Assembly (NCBI GenBank): GCA_005116775.1
Contig: SWDN01000015.1
Coordinates: forward strand, 1 to 64,000
Direction of reading: 5' to 3'
DNA length: 64,000 nucleotides
Origin: Nitrospira sp.
GTDB taxonomy: Bacteria; Nitrospirota; Nitrospiria; Nitrospirales; Nitrospiraceae
Below the pieces are notes generated by a model. It was not told the origin of the DNA. It did not search any database and saw only the letters and a program-made list of their open reading frames with translations. Both the position numbers and the translations under genes were made by a program. Below are positions 22,855-55,554 of this stretch, one piece after another; position 1 is the first letter of the stretch, and every line of letters starts with the position of its first letter.

Positions 22855-24264
22855 CTACACGTCGTAATACAGGACATACTCGTACGGATGCGGACGCAAC
22901 CGCATGGGGTCGACTTCTTTCTTGCGTTTGTAGCTGATCCAGCTTTCGATCAGGTCCTTATTGAACACACCACCCTTGAGCAAAAACTGATGGTCCTGTT
23001 CGAGGTTTCGTAACGCTTCGTCGAGACTGCCCGGCATCGTGCGAATGGTAGCCGCTTCCTCCGGCTCCAGATCGTAGAGATCCTTTTCTGCCGGTTCGCC
23101 GGGATTGATCTTGTTCTCAATCCCGTCCAACCCAGCCATCAGCATGGCGGAAAAGGCCAAGTAGGGATTGGCGGTTGGGTCGGGAAAACGCACTTCGATC
23201 CGCTTGGCTTTTGGGCTTGGCGAATACATGGGAATACGGATGCCCGCCGATCGGTTCCGGCTGGAATAGGCCAGCAGAACCGGGGCCTCATACCCTGGGG
23301 TCAACCGTTTGTAGGAATTGGTCGTCGGATTGGTAAACGCCGCCAAAGCCGGAGCGTGTTTCAGTATCCCGCCGATATAATAGAGGCACAGTTGGGAGAT
23401 GCCTGCATATTCCTTTCCGGCAAAGAGAGGCTTCCCATCTTTCCAGATGCTCTGATGCGTGTGCATGCCGGTGCCGTTGTCCCCAAAGATCGGCTTGGGC
23501 ATGAAAGTGGCGGTCTTGCCATGACGGCGGGCCACGTTTTTGACGATGTACTTGTACATCATCAAGGTGTCAGCCGTTTTGACCAGCGGACCGAACCGGA
23601 TGTCGATTTCCGCCTGGCCAGCCGTCGCCGTCTCGTGATGGTGCTTCTCGATGGAGATCCCGGCCTTCTGCATTTCCAGGACCATCTCGCTGCGAATATC
23701 TTGCTGTGTATCGGTCGGAGGAACCGGGAAATAGCCTTCCTTGTGGCGAATTTTTCCGCCCAAGTTGTGGCCTTCCTGCCCGATATTCCACGCGCCTTCT
23801 TCGGAGTCGATGAAGTAGAAGCCGCTGTGGCCCGTCTGATCGTACCGGACATGATCGAAAATGAAGAATTCCGCTTCCGGTCCCCAGTAAGAAATGTCGC
23901 CGATCTTGGTGCTCTGGAGATATTTTTCCGCCTTCTGCGCCACAAATCTCGGGTCGCGTTCGTACGGCTCGCGCGTGATCGGATCGACGATATTGCCGAC
24001 GAGGCTCATCGTAGGAACCGCGCAGAACGGATCGAGACAGGCTGTGGTCGGATCGGGAATCATCAGCAGATCGCTATTGTTGATGGCTTTCCAGCCCCGG
24101 ATCGACGAACCGTCCAATCCGGACCCGTCCTTGAACAACCCTTCGGTCAGCTCATCCACGGGAACCGAGAAATGCTGCCAGGTGCCGATCAAATCCACAA
24201 ACTTCAGGTCCACCATCTGGATCTTGTGTTTCTTCGCAAATTCGATCGCCTCACGGGGATTCAT
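22855..24264 (-). CDS. glnA: Glutamine synthetase type I
   Basis: 469 aa; [51 protein letters not shown]. Confidence 0.98.
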
Positions 24265-24287
24265 TCTGACTCTCCTCCTTCGTCACA

Positions 24288-27447
<3,160 letters not shown>

Positions 27448-27490
27448 CTGCCAGCACGATTGTTTCGCCCATTGTATCATGAGCCCTGTA

Positions 27491-28855
27491 TTACACGTGA
27501 TAGGCTTTCTCACCGTGCTGACTGACATCCAAGCCTTCTTGTTCTTCATCTTGCGTCACACGCAGACCCATGACCACGTCGATTATTTTAAGAATAATCC
27601 AGGTACAGATCATAGAAAAGCCCGCTACCGCGCCGATCATGATGAGCTGCACCATGAGGAGCTTTGGATTGCCGAAGAACAGCCCGTCGTTCCCGGCGGC
27701 ATTGATCGCCTTCGACGCAAATAATCCCGCCCCAACGAGGCCGAGCGCTCCGCCCACACCGTGAACGCCCACCACATCGAGCGAATCGTCGAAGCCCAGA
27801 GCCGGCTTCAAGATGCTGACGCAGATATAACAGACGATTCCAGCCGCGATGCCGATCATGATCGCCCCGAACAATCCGACATACCCGGCAGCGGGAGTAA
27901 TGGTGGCCAATCCAGCGATCGCCCCGGTCGCACAACCGAGCGCCGTGGGCTTCCCGCGATGCGCCCACTCGATCAGCATCCACACCACCGTGGCAACAGA
28001 AGCTGCGATATGGGTAGCCACAAACGCGCTGGCCGCCAATCCATTCGCCCCCAACGCGCTGCCCGCGTTGAACCCAAACCAGCCGAACCAGAGCAAGCCT
28101 GCCCCCAACAACATGATAGGGAGATTATGCGGAGGCATAGGAGTGTTCGGATAGCCCATGCGCTTTCCGAGCATAATACAGGCGACCAAGGCAGACGTTG
28201 CAGAACTGACGTGCACGACTGCGCCCCCCGCAAAGTCCAATGCGCCCATCTGCCCCAACCATCCACCGCCCCAAATCCAATGGCAGACAGGATAGTACAC
28301 CACGATCGACCAGATGCCGAGAAACCACAGCATAGAGGAGAACCTGATGCGTTCCGCAATGGCCCCCGTCATCAGCGCCGGGGTAATGGCGGCGAACATC
28401 ATCTGGTACATCATGAATACTTCGTGTGGAATTGTCGGACCATACACCGGATGAGGATCGGCTCCCACCCCTCGCAAGAATGCCCAATCGAAGTTCCCGA
28501 TGAACCCACCGACATCTGGACCGAAAGAAAGGCTATATCCGAACAACACCCATGCGATGCTGGCCAGACAGAGACAAATGAAGCTGTGCAAGACCGTACT
28601 TAGGATATTCTTTTGCCTGGTGAGTCCTCCATAGAAGAGCGCCAACCCCGGCAACGTCATGGCCATCACCAGCGCCGCAGAAGCGAGGATCCATGCCGTA
28701 TCCCCTGTATCGACCTTTAACGCGGCTGGAGCTTCGGCAGCTGCTTCTTCTGCCGCGACATACGGCACATTGAAAGCCAACCCTCCGGCCAACACCGTGA
28801 GACAAATCAGGAGGACCGGCAGAACCTTTTTAATACTCATCAAATGCCACGACAT
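27491..28855 (-). CDS. amtB: Ammonium transporter
   Basis: DTAWILASAALVMAMTLPGLALFYGGLTRQKNILST, ALDFAGGAVVHVSSATSALVA, DDSLDVVGVHGVGGALG. Confidence 0.97.
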   Translation of the reverse strand: MSWHLMSIKKVLPVLLICLTVLAGGLAFNVPYVAAEEAAAEAPAALKVDTGDTAWILASAALVMAMTLPGLALFYGGLTRQKNILSTVLHSFICLCLASIAWVLFGYSLSFGPDVGGFIGNFDWAFLRGVGADPHPVYGPTIPHEVFMMYQMMFAAITPALMTGAIAERIRFSSMLWFLGIWSIVVYYPVCHWIWGGGWLGQMGALDFAGGAVVHVSSATSALVACIMLGKRMGYPNTPMPPHNLPIMLLGAGLLWFGWFGFNAGSALGANGLAASAFVATHIAASVATVVWMLIEWAHRGKPTALGCATGAIAGLATITPAAGYVGLFGAIMIGIAAGIVCYICVSILKPALGFDDSLDVVGVHGVGGALGLVGAGLFASKAINAAGNDGLFFGNPKLLMVQLIMIGAVAGFSMICTWIILKIIDVVMGLRVTQDEEQEGLDVSQHGEKAYHV

Positions 28856-29324: not shown

Positions 29325-30668
29325 TTAGAACAGGTACACGACTGAGAATCCGAGGGTCTGTTGATTGTTCGTCGCTTGATCGCCACGTACGAAGACATTC
29401 TTATCTGACTTGTCATACCGGAACTCTGCCCTCGTCAAGAGTGACGGGGCCGGCTTCCATTGAAAGGTAACAGTGCCCTCCCAAAGGGTCTGACGAGTTC
29501 CCGTACCCGTTGCCGTATTAAAAAGACTATTAGCAGGCGTAGCAGCAGAACCAGGCGAAAAACCACCGGCTGCCGAAGTAGCACAAACATTTGAGCCGCC
29601 GTTGAAATTATTACCGCCGTAACAGGTACGGGCGCCACCGGCATCCTCGAAGATTTCTCCACGAACCCTGAGGCTCATTGCATTGGGCTTCGTTTGATCG
29701 TTGAAGTCATGCGTGTAATAGGCGAGGATCGCATTCCAACGAGCATTCCGGGAATTGCTATTAAATCCACCGGTGCTGGCATTTTCCTCGTTCCCGTAAT
29801 AGGGCTCAATGACCAGGGTATCGTTGGCGGTCGGCTTGATCGTGATGAGCGAGCCAATCACCATTCGCTTCGCCGTAGGATCGCACCCGGCGTTACCGAG
29901 CGTACAGCCACCGGTGACTGCATTACCACCGCTCGCATTGCCATTTGACTGTTCGTTTCCGTAGGACCCGTAGAAGCTGATTCCGGCCATCTCAATCGGC
30001 GTCAGGGCCAGGTTCCATGTGAGTGTTTTACCCCGGTTGTTATCTTCAATATTGTCCCACCCATTGACGAGTCCGACTGCTGCGGTCGCCCACGAGGTGA
30101 AGGGATAGGTGAATCGGATACCAGTCTCGGTGAAGGCCTGCGCCAAACCGAATGTGAAGCTGCGGGAGAAGTTTGGATTCTCCCAGCTATTGATCACTTC
30201 ATACCCGATCAAGGTATTGATCTTTCCCGCTTGAATCTTCAGACCGTTGCCGATCGGCACGATGTACTCTGCATAGAGTTCATGAACATCCAGCTCGTTG
30301 TTGTCCGTGCCTGGCTGGTAATTCGTGCGAGCCCGAGAAAACCTCGATTGGGCTCCAAAATTGACTCGGGCGCGAAAGCCGATCCGATCCGTGGCGCTGC
30401 CTGCCGCGGCAGCCCGTTCCACCATGAACTGTGCCACTTGCGGCACAAAGGAGTTGGCCTGAGTATCAAAGATCCTCAGTTGATTCAGGTTGGTGTTCGG
30501 ATTATTGAAGTTCTGTGTATAGGAGGCTTCCGCCGCCCCGGAAAACTTAAAGCCTAACTCTTTCCATGTGGTGTCGGCATCCGCAGCTAAGGCAGCATTG
30601 CCGCCTAGCAGCGAGACCATCGCACACATGCCTATTCCAAGCCCGATACGTTTGCTTCCTGACTTCAT
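29325..30668 (-). CDS. Outer-membrane beta-barrel porin, bbp2/OmpL-like; start placed at MKSGSKR preceded by GAGGAGG
   Basis: Signal peptide; WKELGFKFSGAAEASYTQNFNNP..., KIQAGKINTLIGYEVINSWENPNFSRSF..., terminal QQTLGFSVVYLF. Confidence 0.85.
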   Translation of the reverse strand: MKSGSKRIGLGIGMCAMVSLLGGNAALAADADTTWKELGFKFSGAAEASYTQNFNNPNTNLNQLRIFDTQANSFVPQVAQFMVERAAAAGSATDRIGFRARVNFGAQSRFSRARTNYQPGTDNNELDVHELYAEYIVPIGNGLKIQAGKINTLIGYEVINSWENPNFSRSFTFGLAQAFTETGIRFTYPFTSWATAAVGLVNGWDNIEDNNRGKTLTWNLALTPIEMAGISFYGSYGNEQSNGNASGGNAVTGGCTLGNAGCDPTAKRMVIGSLITIKPTANDTLVIEPYYGNEENASTGGFNSNSRNARWNAILAYYTHDFNDQTKPNAMSLRVRGEIFEDAGGARTCYGGNNFNGGSNVCATSAAGGFSPGSAATPANSLFNTATGTGTRQTLWEGTVTFQWKPAPSLLTRAEFRYDKSDKNVFVRGDQATNNQQTLGFSVVYLF

Positions 30669-30947: not shown

Positions 30948-30989
30948 AACAAAATAAAACGTCCTCTAGCCCCGCTGGGACTGGAGGAC
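30948..30989 (-). terminator. Intrinsic terminator in the porin leader, overlapping a hexaloop hairpin
   Basis: Minus strand GTCCTCCAG-TCCCAGCGGGG-CTAGAGGAC followed by GTTTTATTTTGTT. Confidence 0.8.
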
Positions 30990-31045
30990 GCCATTGTCCA
31001 TTATTCCGAACTATGAGAGGCCGGTGGGAAACGCCGTTGTTCCCC
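30985..31045 (-). ncRNA. Dual hexaloop hairpin module A (candidate ANTAR-responsive antiterminator) in the porin leader
   Basis: Minus strand GGGGAAC-AACGGC-GTTTCCC (31045-31026) then GGAC-AATGGC-GTCC (30999-30986); the second overlaps the terminator 5' arm. Confidence 0.75.
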
Positions 31046-31086
31046 TTTCCGAAGGGCACCCTGTGGAAGCCCTTATATTGGGCGCT

Positions 31087-31115
31087 CTTATACCTGTCCC
31101 ACGGAAATCTGTCAA
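31087..31115 (-). promoter_or_regulatory. Sigma-70-type promoter for the porin leader
   Basis: Minus strand TTGACA (31115-31110), 17-bp spacer, TATAAG (31092-31087). Confidence 0.75.
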
Positions 31116-32489: not shown

Positions 32490-32740
32490 GTTGCCGTAAA
32501 TATCCGACAGTCCATAGTACCCTTTGGACATGCAGCCCCTCACACAGCTGACCCTGGCCTTTGAGCTCGCCGAACAAGACCTGAGTCACACAAAAATTGC
32601 GGTGCATCTAGGGCGACCTCGGCAGACCGTCGGGCTCTGGCTGAAGGGCATGGCGAACTATGGGCTCGCGGGCTTTCTCGATCGCCATACCCAGGCCAAG
32701 AAGGGCCCCCGCAGAGTTCCGGGCTTGACAGTCACGCTGA
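32490..32740 (+). mobile_element. 5' remnant of an IS481-like element (left end plus transposase N-terminus)
   Basis: End CCGCAATGTTGCCGTAAATATCCGACAGTCC; MDMQPLTQLTLAFELAEQDLSHTKIAVHLGRPRQTVGLWLKGM...LAGFLDRH parallels the ORF at 33254 and is then lost. Confidence 0.7.
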
Positions 32741-33214
32741 CATCAGAAAACAGCTGCCGCTCTCCGCGACTGCCGCTCAGTGCGACGGTTTGGAACATAT
32801 TCGGAGATATTCCATTGGAAGCGAAGAAAAAGAACTGCCCCAGCGTCGAATCCTACAGAGTCGTATTCTCGATGACCGTTGCTTCAACACCGGCTGACGC
32901 TTCATAAGTGGTACCGCTGAAACGGTAATTCCTTGGGAAAATCGATGACCCGACATAGCAACGGCAAAAATCCTGCAGCGCCAGGCTTCTCACATTTTAT
33001 AATTGTCGCCCATCTGACATCAGCAAGTCAAAGATGGGTTCATACGGTATGGCATGGACCATTGCTGAACCAATCGATCGAATCTATCGTTATCCAGCAT
33101 CGCACCAATACACCGCGGGCAGCCGACAATAGATTTTCATGCTCGGATAGCCGGAACCTCACCAACCCAATCAGAAATGGATTTGAGATTTTTGAATGTC
33201 ATGGTGAGGGGGCC

Positions 33215-34175
33215 GCAACGTTACCGTAAATATCCGACAATCCCTAGGAGCCTATGGACATGCAGTCACCGACCCCAATCACGCTGGCCGATGAGCTGCC
33301 CGCGCAAGGCCTGAGTCGGACAAAGATTGCGGCGTATCTGGGACGACATCGGGAGACCATTGGACTGTGGCTCAAGGGGATTGCGACGGACAGGCTGGCC
33401 GGGTTTCTCGCCCGCCATGAGCAGGCCACGACAGGCCCCCGACGAACCCGGCAGGTCCCTGCACCGACCAAGCGGCTCATCAGGGCGCTGCGCGTTCGAG
33501 AGCACGAGTGCCGTGGCCAGACCATCGCCTATTTCCTAGAACGGGAACATCAGATCCGGCTCTCTGCGGCCAAGATCTCCGAGATCCTGGCCGAGCAGTA
33601 CGTGATTCGCTCGAAGTGGCAGAAGAATCAGAAGCGCGAGGCCGCCCCCACAGCGTCCGCTCCTCGGGCCGTCATTCAAATGGACACGGTGGCATTTGGT
33701 CAGGTCTTGGCCTTCACCGGCATCGATATCTACACCAACGAGGTGGCGGTTGTGCGCCTACCGGCCATGACCAGTGAGGACGGCGCGGCCGTTTTACACC
33801 CCGCCATGGACGACCGCTTTACGGGACATGTTGCCGTGCTCCAAACTGATGGCGGGTCGGAGCTCAAGAGCGCCTTTGCGCATCAGGCCCGCGCCTATTG
33901 TGACCGACATCGCATCGCCCGACCGTACAAGAAGAATGAACAGGCGTAGATCGAACGCTTCAACCGCACGTTGCGCAAGGAATGCGTAGGCTGGGAAACC
34001 TATCGCGCCGAGGAGCTGCCATGCCTGATTCCGGAGATCCACACGTTTCTCGATTGCTATCATTCCCACCGACCGCACTTAGGATTGGTGCCTCTGCGAC
34101 CACCACGCACGGTGCCATCAGCACAGCAAGACCGACTGTCTGATATTTACGGAGAATAGTGCGAACTCCTGACAA
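33215..34175 (+). mobile_element. IS481-like insertion element, boundaries approximate
   Basis: Left end GTTACCGTAAATATCCGACAATCC; right end reverse complement TATTCTCCGTAAATATCAGACAGTC. Confidence 0.7.
33254..34159 (+). pseudogene. IS481-like DDE transposase interrupted by one in-frame TAG
   Basis: 302 codons; ...RPYKKNEQA-TAG-IERFNRTLRKECVGWETY...HTFLDCYHSHRPHLGLVPLRPP; CAG to TAG fits the lost Q. Confidence 0.8.
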
Positions 34176-35289: not shown

Positions 35290-36712
35290 AGCCATTCGTA
35301 ATCGGCATCCGCCGATCCTTCCCCAAGGCCCGATGAGTAATCTTGATCCCGATCGGCGCCTGCCGGCGTTTGTACTCGCTGCCGTCCACCATCTTCATGA
35401 CACGAGCCACCGTGGCACGGTCATATCCCGCTTCAGATCATAGACCATCGTCTTGGGCACATCTTTGATTACGGCAAAACCGCCGGCCATATCGCCGTAC
35501 AATGTGGCATATCCCACACTCATCTCGCTCTTGTTGCCGGTTGTGAGCACCAGATGGCCGAATTTATTGGAGAAGGCCATGAGGAGATTGCCCCGTATCC
35601 TGGCTTGGAGATTCTCTTCCGTCGTATCAGGCCCATGCCCCTCAAACGTCTCAGCGAGCACGCCCCGATAGCTGTCGAACAGCGTCGTGATAGGAATCGT
35701 CCGGACGGAGATGGCCAGTTGCGTTCCCAATTCAGCGACATCGTCGTAGCTGTCTTTCGACGTGTAGGGTGACGGCATGAACAGACCCCTCACATTCTCG
35801 GCGCCAAGCGCATCCACGGCGATCACGGCGGTCAGAGCCGAATCTACCCCACCGCTCAAACCGATGACGGCACGCGTAAATCCGTTTTTCCTCACGTAGT
35901 CACGCACCCCCAGCGTGAGGGCCCGATAGACTTCCTCCAGAGGGTCCAAGGCTACTGCCACATCGGGGACCGCGCGCACCCGGGCTTTTGGAACAGATGG
36001 AAGCGGCGCGGCATAGACCTCTACCGCAGAGGCAACGGATCTGGGCAACGGCTTTTTCCGGACGGTTCGTCTCGCCCGCGCGACCGCCTCGATGTTGAGG
36101 TCGGCGACGATTAGATCTTCCTCGAACGCTTTTCCCCGTGCGATCACTTCGCCCTGGTGGTCCAGGATCACACTGTTCCCGTCGAAGACCAGCTCATCCT
36201 GACCGCCGACCGCATTCGTGTAGGTGAGCACCACTCCATGTTCTCTCGCGCGGGTCGCCAACATCTGCTCACGCACGATACTCTTGCCCAAATGAAACGG
36301 CGACGCATTGACGTTCACAATCACTTCGGCGCCGGCTGCCGCCTGGAAACCGGTTGGACCATCCGGGAGCCAGACATCCTCGCAAATGTTGACCCCGACC
36401 ACCGTGCCGCGCAGCCGAATAAGCGGCAGCCGTCGGCCTGGATGAAAATAGCGGCTTTCGTCGAACACACCGTAATTCGGCAAGTACCACTTGCAATAGG
36501 TCGTGATGAGCTTCTGGTCTGCGATGACCGCTGCTGCATTGAAGAGGTCGTGCGCGCCGGCCTGCACTATCGACGAGCGGGCTTGCTTCGGATCGACCCC
36601 ATCGCTCTGGCTGACATAGCCCACTACCGCAGCGAGGCCTCGGCAAGAGCGGGTGATTTCCTGAAGCGCGCGGCGGTTATCCGCAATAAACTGCGGCTTG
36701 AGCAAGACCCCA
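35290..36712 (-). pseudogene. nadE: NAD synthetase lacking its N-terminus and an internal segment near the C-terminus
   Basis: LLKPQFIADNRRALQEITRSCRGLAAVVGY...IGLSGGVDSALTAVIAVDALG...[24 protein letters not shown], then after a frame change [50 protein letters not shown]. Confidence 0.8.
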
Positions 36713-39227: not shown

Positions 39228-40955
39228 TTAGAACAGGAAATACCGCTGCGCCATCGGCAATACGGCCATGGGGTCACATTTCAAGATTTGCCCGTCGGCT
39301 TTCACCACATAGGTTTCCGGATCGACCTCAATGCGCGGCAACGAATCGTTCAGTTTCATATCGCGCTTGCCGATCCCACGGCATTGCTTCACCGCCGCCA
39401 CGTGTTTCTGCAACCCGAGCGACTTATGCACCTCGTGCTCTATTGCGGCTTTTGAAAGAAACGTCAGGCTCGTAGAAAACGGCGCGCGGCCAAAGCTTCC
39501 GAACATGGGTCTGGTCAAGACCGGCTGCGGCGTTGGGATAGACGCATTCGGATCTCCCATGGCGGCAGACATGGGGAAGCCACCCTTTAAAACTATTTCA
39601 GGCTTCACACCGAAAAAAGCGGGCTTCCACAGGACGAGATCCGCCAACTTACCGACTTCGACTGAGCCCACTTCGTGCCCGATGCCGTGCGCAATCGCCG
39701 GATTGATCGTGTACTTTGCGATATAGCGCCGCGCACGGAAATTATCGTTCGCACCGGACAACTTTTCCGCTGCGGTCTGCGACAGATGTCCTCGCTGCAC
39801 TTTCATTTTGTGCGCCGTCTGCCACGTGCGAATAATGACTTCGCCCACGCGCCCCATCGCCTGTGAGTCGGACGACATGATGCTGATCGCCCCCATGTCG
39901 TGCAGGATATCCTCCGCTGCAATGGTCTCGCGGCGAATGCGCGATTCAGCAAAGGCGATATCCTCCGGCACACGAGGATTTAAATGATGACAGACCATGA
40001 GCATGTCAAGATGCTCGTCCATCGTATTCACCGTGAACGGCATCGTGGGATTTGTGGACGAGGGCAATACGTTGGGCTCACCGCAGACCTTGATGATGTC
40101 GGGAGCATGCCCCCCACCGGCGCCTTCCGTATGAAACGAGTGAATCGTCCGTCCTTTGAACGCTTTAATCGTATCTTCGACAAACCCTGCTTCGTTCAAC
40201 GTATCGGTGTGGATGGCGACTTGGACATCGAATTCTTCCGCGACATCGAGGCAGGTTGAAATCGCCGCCGGCGTGGTGCCCCAGTCTTCGTGCAACTTGA
40301 GCCCGATGGCACCGGCCTCGACCTGTTCGCGAAGTCCCTCCGGCAATGATGAATTGCCCTTCCCGAGAAAACCAAGATTGATCGGGAACCCATCGGCCGC
40401 TTCCAACATACGATGGATATTCCATGCACCAGGCGTGCAGGTTGTAGCATTCGTGCCAGTCGCTGGGCCGGTCCCACCACCGATCAATGTGGTCATTCCG
40501 TTTGCTATCGCTTCCGTGATGATCTGCGGACAGATGAAATGAATGTGCGTGTCGATACCACCCGCCGTGATGATCTTGCCTTCAGCCGAAAGCACTTCGG
40601 TACAAGCGCCGACCTCCATTCCTTTCGTCACACCTTCCATCAAATCAGGATTCCCGGCCTTGCCGATACCGAAGATGCGCCCCTCACGGATACCGATGTC
40701 GGCTTTGACGATTCCCCACCAATCGATGATGATCGCATTGGTAATCACGAGGTCGAGCGCGCCCTTCGCGCGAGTGGCCGCAGGCGATTGTCCCATGCCG
40801 TCGCGGATGACCTTGCCTCCTCCGAACTTGGCCTCTTCACCGGGCACTGTCAGATCGCGCGTGATCTCGATCATGAGATCCGTGTCAGCCAGGCGAATGC
40901 GATCCCCCACCGTCGGTCCGTAGAGGTCGTTGTATTGCCGCCGAGGAATCTTCAT
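39228..40955 (-). CDS. ureC: Urease subunit alpha
   Basis: 575 aa; [54 protein letters not shown]. Confidence 0.98.
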
Positions 40956-50829: not shown

Positions 50830-52178
50830 TGTAGATAGCACATCATCTGTCCGGTTTAGGGTGGTCCCTCTAGGAGGGCCACTATGACGCGGGCACGGGT
50901 ACTACAGGAGGTGAGACAGATGCGGTTCGAGGAGCTCTATGAGCGGCGGCAGCAACGGATCTTGACGATGGCGGAGGCTGGCGAGATGCTGGGCGTAACC
51001 GAGCGGACCTTTCACCGCTGGAGTGGGCGCTATCATACGGAGGGGGCCGAGGGGTTGCAGGATCGACGGATCGGCCGGCTCTCGGGTCGCGCGGTGCCGG
51101 TCGACGAGGCGTTGCGTATGGTGACGTGGTATGAGACCCGGTACACCGGCTGGACCGTGAAGCATTTCCATGAGCGCTGGCAGACCGAGCATGGCGGGAG
51201 GCGGTCGTATAGCTGGGCCAAGAAGACGTTACAGGCCGCGGGACATGTGGTCCGGGCGCCCCGACGAGGGGCCCATCACAAGAAGCGACCTCGCAAACCC
51301 TTGCCGGGCATGATGCTGCACCTAGACGGCTCGACCCATGAGTGGGTGCCCGGCTGTCAGTGGGATTTGATCGTGACGCTGGATGATGCGACCAGCGAGC
51401 TCTATTCCGCTTTCTTCGTCGAAGAAGAAGGGACCCTGAGTAGCCTGCGCGGTCTGCGGGAGGTCATCGGGACGAAGGGGCTATTTAGTTCGCTCTATAC
51501 GGATCGGGGCTCCCACTACTGGCACACCGACGAGGCTGGAGGGAAAGTAGACAAGACCCGGCTGACGCAGGTGCATCGCGCCTTGCAGCAGTTGGGGGTG
51601 ACGCTGATTCCGGCCTATTCACCGGAAGCACGAGGCCGGTCGGAGCGCGCCTTCCGGACCCTACAGGACCGGCTGTCCAAAGAGCTGGCCCTGGGGGATC
51701 ACCGAGATGGCGGCGGCCAACCGGTACCTGACCGAGCGGTTCCTCCCCCAGCATAACAAGCGGTTTATGGTGCGGGCGACCGAACCGGGCACCGCCTTTA
51801 TCCCATTGGTCGGCCCGCACCTCGCCGAGATCCTCTGTGTGCAAGAGGAGCGGGTCGTGGCCAAGGACAACACCGTGCGGTATCAGGGCCTGAGCCTGCA
51901 GATTCCGCAGGATCCGCATCGGTTCCATTATGTGCAGGTCACGGTGCGGGTCCACGCCTATCCGGACGGGACCTTGGCCGTGTTCCATGGCCCCCGGTGT
52001 TTAGCCCGCTACCACGCGGAGGGCCAGCTGATCGAGACCGGACAGGCCCACCCAGGCCCGACCCACAGTCGAACGTTCCGCCGATCGTTCATCCTAGGCC
52101 AACGGTACGCGACAGAATTTCGGCGCACGGCTGAAAGACTCGAAGAGAAGAACCGGACAAGTTAACTTGCTATCTACA
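50830..52178 (+). mobile_element. IS1202-like (ISNCY) insertion sequence, 1349 bp
   Basis: Ends TGTAGATAGCA..TGTCCGGTT in inverted orientation; flanked by identical 16-bp GTGGTCGCTGTTCGGT (50814-50829 and 52179-52194). Confidence 0.85.
50884..52165 (+). pseudogene. IS1202-like transposase with a frameshift at about 51690-51700
   Basis: Frame 1 ends LSKELALGDHRDGGGQPVPDRA; the other frame continues PWGITEMAAANRYLTERFLPQHNKRFMV; GGGGG run at the shift. Confidence 0.8.
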
Positions 52179-54288: not shown

Positions 54289-55554
54289 TTATCCCCGATG
54301 TTTCTCAGCCCGCTGGTCGAGCTCTCCGGCCAAGAGCACGGCCTCGGCTATTTCACGCATCGATTTCCTGAAATCCATGCTCTGCCGCTGGATAAGCTTG
54401 AAGGCCTCTTCTTCGGTTAATTTCTTCGAGCGCATGAGATAGCCTTTGGCCCGCTCCATGAGCTTCCGAACGGCCAGGGCCTCCTGCATCTCGTGAGACT
54501 TCTCGATCAAAGTCGTGTGCTCAATGGCAATGGCGGCCTGATTGGCGATCGCCTGAAGCAACTTGACCTCTTCGCTGGTGAAGACGTGCGGAGCGGATGT
54601 GTAACTATTGATCACGCCCAGCGCTTTATCCCGCACCATCATCGGAACCGACAGCAAGGAGCACAGCCCTTCCTTCTTGGCCATCTCCGGATACATATAG
54701 TCTCGCTCTGTGGACACATCGAGCACGATGATCGGCCGGCGTTCTTTCACGGCGCGGCCGATGATACTCTGCCCAACCTTCAGGTTCGGCTTGCGGCGAT
54801 ATTGTTCGCTGAGGCTTTGTGTCGAGGCGATTCGCAGCTCCCCGCTGGCTTCGTCCAAAAGCATGATCGAGCAGATCTTGGAGTTCATCATTTGCGCAGT
54901 CATGGTCACCAACAGCTCAAGCACATCTTTGATCAACCGGTTGGACGCCACCGTTTCCGAAACTTGCGACAGCGTTTCCACCTGTAAGGCTTTGCGTTGC
55001 ATTTGATCGTAGAGCCGCGCATTTTCGATCGCCCCTCCGACTTGATTGGCGATGGTCGAGAGCAGCGCAATCTCATCGGGCTGATAGCGTTTGGGACGCT
55101 TATGTTGGACATTGATCACACCGACCACTTCTTTTTTAGCCATAATCGGAACAGACACAAAGGCTTGATAGCGGTCTTCAGGAAGGTTGTGAAAGAACTT
55201 GAACCTCGGATCGTCGTTCGCATTACTCGGAATGATCACGCGCGTCCGCTCCTGAGCGACCCACCCGGTGATGCCTTCTCCTAAGCCGATCGTAATGCGG
55301 CCAATCAGTTTCGGATGAGGGTTTTTCGACGCCCGAAGAATCAGTTCATCTTGGCTGTCCGACAAGAGATAGAGAAGGCAGGCATCCGCCTTCGTAACCT
55401 CGACGACGACGTCGACGATATGTTTGAGAATCGCTTCGAGATCCAGCTGGTTGCTGATCGACGCAGAAATCCGATGGAGCACATCGACTTCGCGTGTTTT
55501 TTCGCGCAGTGCCTGCTGGAGGTGAGCCACAGATAGCGTACGTTTGGTCGTCAT
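54289..55554 (-). CDS. GAF-GAF-ANTAR protein, candidate RNA-binding antitermination regulator
   Basis: Two GAF-like regions (VDVVVEVTKADACLLYLL...; MMNSKICSIMLLDEASGELRI...); C-terminal EALAVRKLMERAKGYLMRSKKLTEEEAFKLIQRQSMDFRKSMREIAEAVLL is ANTAR-like. Confidence 0.88.
   Translation of the reverse strand: MTTKRTLSVAHLQQALREKTREVDVLHRISASISNQLDLEAILKHIVDVVVEVTKADACLLYLLSDSQDELILRASKNPHPKLIGRITIGLGEGITGWVAQERTRVIIPSNANDDPRFKFFHNLPEDRYQAFVSVPIMAKKEVVGVINVQHKRPKRYQPDEIALLSTIANQVGGAIENARLYDQMQRKALQVETLSQVSETVASNRLIKDVLELLVTMTAQMMNSKICSIMLLDEASGELRIASTQSLSEQYRRKPNLKVGQSIIGRAVKERRPIIVLDVSTERDYMYPEMAKKEGLCSLLSVPMMVRDKALGVINSYTSAPHVFTSEEVKLLQAIANQAAIAIEHTTLIEKSHEMQEALAVRKLMERAKGYLMRSKKLTEEEAFKLIQRQSMDFRKSMREIAEAVLLAGELDQRAEKHRG

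Follow-up and report, generated by a model that had tools for sequence, protein, structure and literature searches.

The closest described counterpart of the element studied here is the EutV/EutW system of Enterococcus faecalis, whose eut leaders carry two hairpins with A1/G4 hexaloops and C-G and A-U closing pairs (PMC3369931; PMC8934654). Their second hairpin is mutually exclusive with an intrinsic terminator, and their linkers measure 5-12 nt, 14 nt already lowering induction (PMC3369931). In Klebsiella oxytoca, ANTAR antitermination of nitrogen acquisition by NasR, which senses nitrate through a NIT domain, uses the nasF leader, with an A1/G4 hexaloop upstream of a terminator. Others have described actinobacterial ANTAR-target RNAs near the ribosome-binding site (RBS), dual hexaloops in a 5'UTR without a terminator, the mycobacterial ones repressing translation (PMC8164766), and nitrogen-related genes are reported ANTAR regulon content, as in Desulfotomaculum acetoxidans, whose 13 hits are spread over six transcription units (PMC3369931). 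For Nitrospira, a genus that includes complete nitrifiers, a syntenic nitrogen uptake/assimilation region has been reviewed, the comammox MAG CG24E included (PMC6311188). We found no published account of how this nitrogen cluster is switched and, in the literature covered (the supplementary table of PMC3369931 excepted), none of ANTAR or antitermination in Nitrospira.

Here we analyzed a window of 64,000 nucleotides (the whole stretch of DNA, from a Nitrospira sp. contig), in which the porin gene bbp2 is preceded by two dual-hexaloop elements, E1 and E2, and a presumed regulator is encoded further upstream. The features that the comparison needs are the following.

31115-31110, minus strand: TTGACA, the -35 element, kept in nearly all aligned leaders
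31092-31087, minus strand: TATAAG, -10-like, behind a 17-nt spacer from TTGACA; weakly conserved in relatives
31045-31026, minus strand: E1 hairpin P1, GGGGAAC-AACGGC-GTTTCCC, hexaloop with A1 and G4, stem with covariation
31025-31000, minus strand: E1 linker from P1 to P2, 26 nt
30999-30986, minus strand: E1 hairpin P2, GGAC-AATGGC-GTCC, hexaloop with A1 and G4, stem invariant in 85 leaders
30989-30961, minus strand: E1 intrinsic terminator, GTCCTCCAGTCCCAGCGGGGCTAGAGGAC
30960-30951, minus strand: U-tract of the E1 terminator, GTTTTATTTT, 3' of the terminator stem
30758-30741, minus strand: E2 hairpin P1', GCGCAC-AATGGC-GTGCGC, in the same porin 5'UTR as E1
30738-30725, minus strand: E2 hairpin P2', CGAC-AACGAC-GTCG, after a 2-nt linker; loop starts 18 nt apart
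30683-30677, minus strand: GAGGAGG, Shine-Dalgarno sequence ahead of the porin ATG
29325-30668, minus strand: BBP2-family porin gene (PF07642), likely start ATG 30668
22855-28855, minus strand: amtB, glnB, glnD and glnA, in line with the porin
54289-55554, minus strand: gene of the GAF-GAF-ANTAR protein, the presumed regulator

The first-pass annotation had read an ANTAR antitermination leader from the letters of E1, and its structural claims hold. The TTGACA-N17-TATAAG promoter on the minus strand is confirmed base for base (31115-31087), as are the two hairpins, each with at least 3 bp and a six-base A1/G4 loop, and the use of one GTCC (30989-30986) as both the P2 3' arm and the start of the terminator 5' arm; the alignment of the porin with amtB to glnA is likewise borne out. 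Computed folding places the terminator in the minimum-energy structure (-60 kcal/mol, z = -3.5), and at -18.5 kcal/mol the terminator hairpin is some 14 kcal/mol stabler than P2 (-4.0; P1, -8.6), so termination is the expected default at E1. A generic promoter/terminator scanner called neither the E1 promoter nor the E1 terminator; the final T is missing from TATAAG, and a mismatch interrupts the terminator stem.

On these and the comparative data below, we regard it as highly probable that E1 would serve as an ANTAR-target transcription attenuator, opened by the GAF-GAF-ANTAR protein and feeding bbp2. In the mechanism that we infer (ANTAR binding, direction of regulation, signal and co-transcription with amtB included), RNA polymerase would start near 31080 and normally halt at the terminator around 30955. 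A signal would activate the GAF-GAF-ANTAR protein, a dimer of which would grip the P1 and P2 hexaloops (A1, G4, the C-G and A-U closing pairs) and keep the GTCC arm in P2, blocking the terminator and allowing read-through into bbp2 and perhaps also into amtB-glnB-glnD-glnA. Leaders at other nitrogen-uptake genes, the urt operon among them, are probably under the control of this protein as well, which would make up a nitrogen-acquisition regulon.

Conservation upstream of orthologous porins, a check that the first-pass annotation had itself proposed, is evident: of the 32 genus genomes, 28 contain a BLASTN match to the E1 leader, the next gene being bbp2 in most of the 28. Nearly all aligned genus copies keep TTGACA, both hexaloops and the terminator. 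Conservation of the -10 region falls far short of that of the -35. The G-U pair in the P1 stem, previously taken to favor a minus-strand RNA, is replaced by G-C or A-U in 7/27 copies, which fits such an RNA. Beyond the genus, the P2/terminator overlap recurs family-wide and is followed by U-tracts. A structural scan of the fetched loci, which sought only two A1/G4 hexaloop hairpins and then a terminator taking the P2 3' arm, returned 62 unique leaders (slightly fewer independent cases, since three listed hits at one locus, L125, have one common P2) and none when the window was shuffled 10 times with its dinucleotides preserved; most of these loci had been fetched for matching the E1 leader or a leader model.

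Covariation points the same way in P1. Across 85 family leaders, 6 of its 7 pairs changed on both sides (97 such cells), and the covariation score of 0.349 (0.159 in shuffles) was reached by 0 of 500 shuffles. These numbers are biased towards the structure, since the alignment was made to fit it and draws on related sequences. Within the genus alone the P1 test is uninformative, the stems hardly varying there, and P2, which does not vary in the 85 leaders, contributes no covariation evidence. The P1-P2 linker of the leader set has a median of 25 nt (range 11-38); at 26 nt, that of E1 exceeds the 5-12 nt of the eut leaders, which counts against the ANTAR reading, and lies at the limit of the 2-25 nt seen in actinobacteria. 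A conserved helix within the linker (CCG...CGG in the genus) would have made the effective linker shorter and was considered for that reason, but was dropped: linkers fold just slightly better than shuffles (mean z = -0.43).

The GAF-GAF-ANTAR protein of the window matches PF03861 at 67.9 bits (curated cut-off 27.3), and no second ANTAR gene turned up in the source genome, which is 70% complete. Its ANTAR domain aligns to that of EutV without gaps, and of the RNA-contact residues taken from the EutV structure paper (PMC8934654), Arg142, Lys143, Glu146, Lys149, Glu160, Met172 and Arg175 are identical; Lys147, Tyr164 and Asn173 give way to the similar Arg, Phe and Asp. Arg168 and Arg177 are replaced by Gln and Ser, changes that, with Tyr164 to Phe, weigh against the ANTAR reading.

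Leader and ANTAR gene also travel together. Among 176 family genomes, a first leader model, built from the genus, found both in 90, the leader only in 7, the ANTAR gene only in 16 and neither in 63 (Fisher p ~3e-24, or 1.6e-18 without the training genus, p ignoring relatedness); with a second, broader model these counts became 104, 7, 2 and 63. The seven leader-bearing genomes without a detected ANTAR gene are a further point against the ANTAR reading. Six are at most 89% complete; in the seventh, G103 (99% complete), a leader match lies at contig C17:157110-157170 and no ANTAR gene was detected. In the other family of the order, all 15 genomes with a leader match have an ANTAR gene. Where a family genome encodes ANTAR, it almost always does so in just one gene, and in several genomes that gene adjoins leaders. 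One weak match of the first model in the source genome itself (C34:59377) is without the loops and was not retained by the second model.

Gene neighborhoods extend the pattern. Leaders of relatives precede bbp2, nadE, nrtA-like, amtB, nirC (formate/nitrite transporter) and carbonic anhydrase genes. Within 20 kb of one genome (G025) the order is ANTAR, nadE, E1-bbp2, amtB, glnB, glnD, glnA, two tandem leaders, nrtA-like, leader and nirC-like; several of these names were assigned from resemblance to window proteins or to relatives checked with Pfam. In another (G005) the ANTAR gene adjoins a leader that stands before a histidine kinase and a response regulator, after which come another leader and urea-transport-like genes. 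Taken with P1 covariation, the P2/terminator overlap and co-occurrence, these neighborhoods support the ANTAR link, which the first-pass annotation had flagged as inference.

Attenuators shaped like E1 exist without ANTAR, and since ANTAR binding to E1 is a prediction, the leader might be a metabolite riboswitch or a leader-peptide attenuator whose hexaloops merely resemble ANTAR targets. We consider this very improbable. No Rfam family at gathering score fits the E1 leader, co-occurrence with the ANTAR gene speaks against such a switch, and so does the conservation in the leader set: A2 and G4 are conserved (G4 nearly invariant), position 1 is mostly A with G in a minority, and the C-G and A-U closing pairs are kept, whereas the outer stem pairs vary freely. 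ANTAR-binding sRNAs titrate ANTAR protein in eut systems, and default termination at E1 would likewise yield a short RNA on which P1 is free, so E1 could be a plain terminator or give rise to an sRNA, a truncated leader by which the ANTAR protein is titrated. To this we likewise give very little credence, as in most fetched loci the leader lies directly upstream of a same-strand gene.

E2 (30758-30725), about 57 nt ahead of the likely porin ATG, bears on how many steps such control might have. Copies were found at 29 loci, almost always ahead of the porin gene, with a loop-start spacing of 18 nt in all copies but one, and E2 was recovered by a model without E2 training (genome-wide E = 0.09; a further match, E = 0.0047). 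E2 is not simply coding sequence, its reading frame being unconserved (open for just 11-29 codons in many relatives, with a 1-nt deletion in one copy). Neither a U-tract after E2 nor a terminator overlapping its second hairpin was seen. An arrangement in which E1 gates transcription and E2, near the RBS, lets the same protein act on translation or stability as well is possible but doubtful. The family-wide conservation, the near-constant spacing, the missing U-tract, the unconserved frame and the precedent of the RBS-linked mycobacterial RNAs argue for it. Against it, the Shine-Dalgarno sequence lies about 40 nt beyond E2, the E2 stretch folds no better than shuffles (z = -0.7) with no alternative fold found, in many relatives the P2' loop begins with G, and E2 pair counts are weak evidence that does not show covariation, the search pattern itself having set the inner pairs. 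That a single GAF-GAF-ANTAR protein acts twice on the porin, by way of a wide-linker E1 (transcription) and a compact E2 (translation or stability), we hold to be slightly less likely still; if it did, the protein would bind two hexaloop spacings, unlike EutV.

A third dual-hexaloop element, E3, precedes the histidine-kinase/urt operon.

50762-50700, minus strand: E3, third dual-hexaloop element
50762-50733, minus strand: E3 P1, AACGAC loop
50715-50700, minus strand: E3 P2, AATGGC loop
45836-50498, minus strand: PAS histidine kinase, response regulator and urea-type ABC binding protein, downstream of E3

No U-tract of a terminator follows E3 in the window or in two orthologs, and we file both E2 and E3 as candidate ANTAR-like elements. 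Neither of them had been noted in the first-pass annotation.

Several further observations concern the leaders and their surroundings. Tandem leaders occur in other Nitrospiraceae (L107:7121-7271, L116:2771-2958, L105:7505-7651, L109:3189-3383 and L141:6345-6511), in several cases with a terminator after each. At L019:338-391 (minus) and L024:354-414 (minus), a second leader lies about 1.2 kb upstream of the bbp2 leader and divergent from it, and a similar one precedes a carbonic anhydrase gene (L029). The nadE gene of the window (35395-36705, minus; CN_hydrolase and NAD synthase) seems to be without its N-terminal part and abuts a ureD-region ORF; in relatives nadE is full length and has an ANTAR leader, and the shortened copy appears to be a deletion or an assembly join. 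At genome contig C5:10492-10549 (L064), an nrtA-type ANTAR leader with terminator stands before an apparently 5'-truncated ruvB, which suggests a deletion or a MAG join. Transposase-like ORFs lie near E3 (50884-51756, plus) and upstream of the porin leader (32524-33949, plus). The only Rfam match in the window, 5_ureB_sRNA (79 bits; 40511-40809, plus), is antisense inside a urease alpha-subunit-like ORF and may reflect merely conserved urease coding sequence.

If the antitermination reading of E1 is true, an ANTAR regulon with its regulator in or near the cluster would be a concrete and testable nitrogen-supply circuit for major nitrifiers. It would add, for Nitrospirota, long linkers and a paired terminator/start-codon arrangement to the known forms of ANTAR leader, and the leader layout could be used to probe how strict ANTAR spacing rules are.

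Set against the described systems, E1 would belong to a known class; the extensive candidate regulon is new, and the architecture and long linker are unusual. E1 resembles the eut leaders in its paired A1/G4 hexaloops, its closing pairs and its mutually exclusive second hairpin and terminator, and most ANTAR contact residues are common to EutV and the window protein. Yet EutV is a phosphorylated receiver protein and the presumed Nitrospira regulator a GAF-GAF-ANTAR protein, and the Nitrospira leaders differ in having linkers of 11-38 rather than 5-12 nt, in tolerating G1 and in preceding nitrogen-uptake genes. The NasR/nasF pair is alike in its hexaloop, terminator and nitrogen function, whereas two GAF domains and a probable multi-unit regulon in Nitrospira contrast with its nitrate-sensing NIT domain. 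E2 shares with the actinobacterial RNAs a dual hexaloop in a 5'UTR without a terminator, but it lies off the RBS, and a terminator-type element precedes it within the one leader. Several leaders on nitrogen genes are also the pattern of D. acetoxidans, which belongs to another phylum; in Nitrospira, the ANTAR gene is often in or beside the cluster it would regulate.
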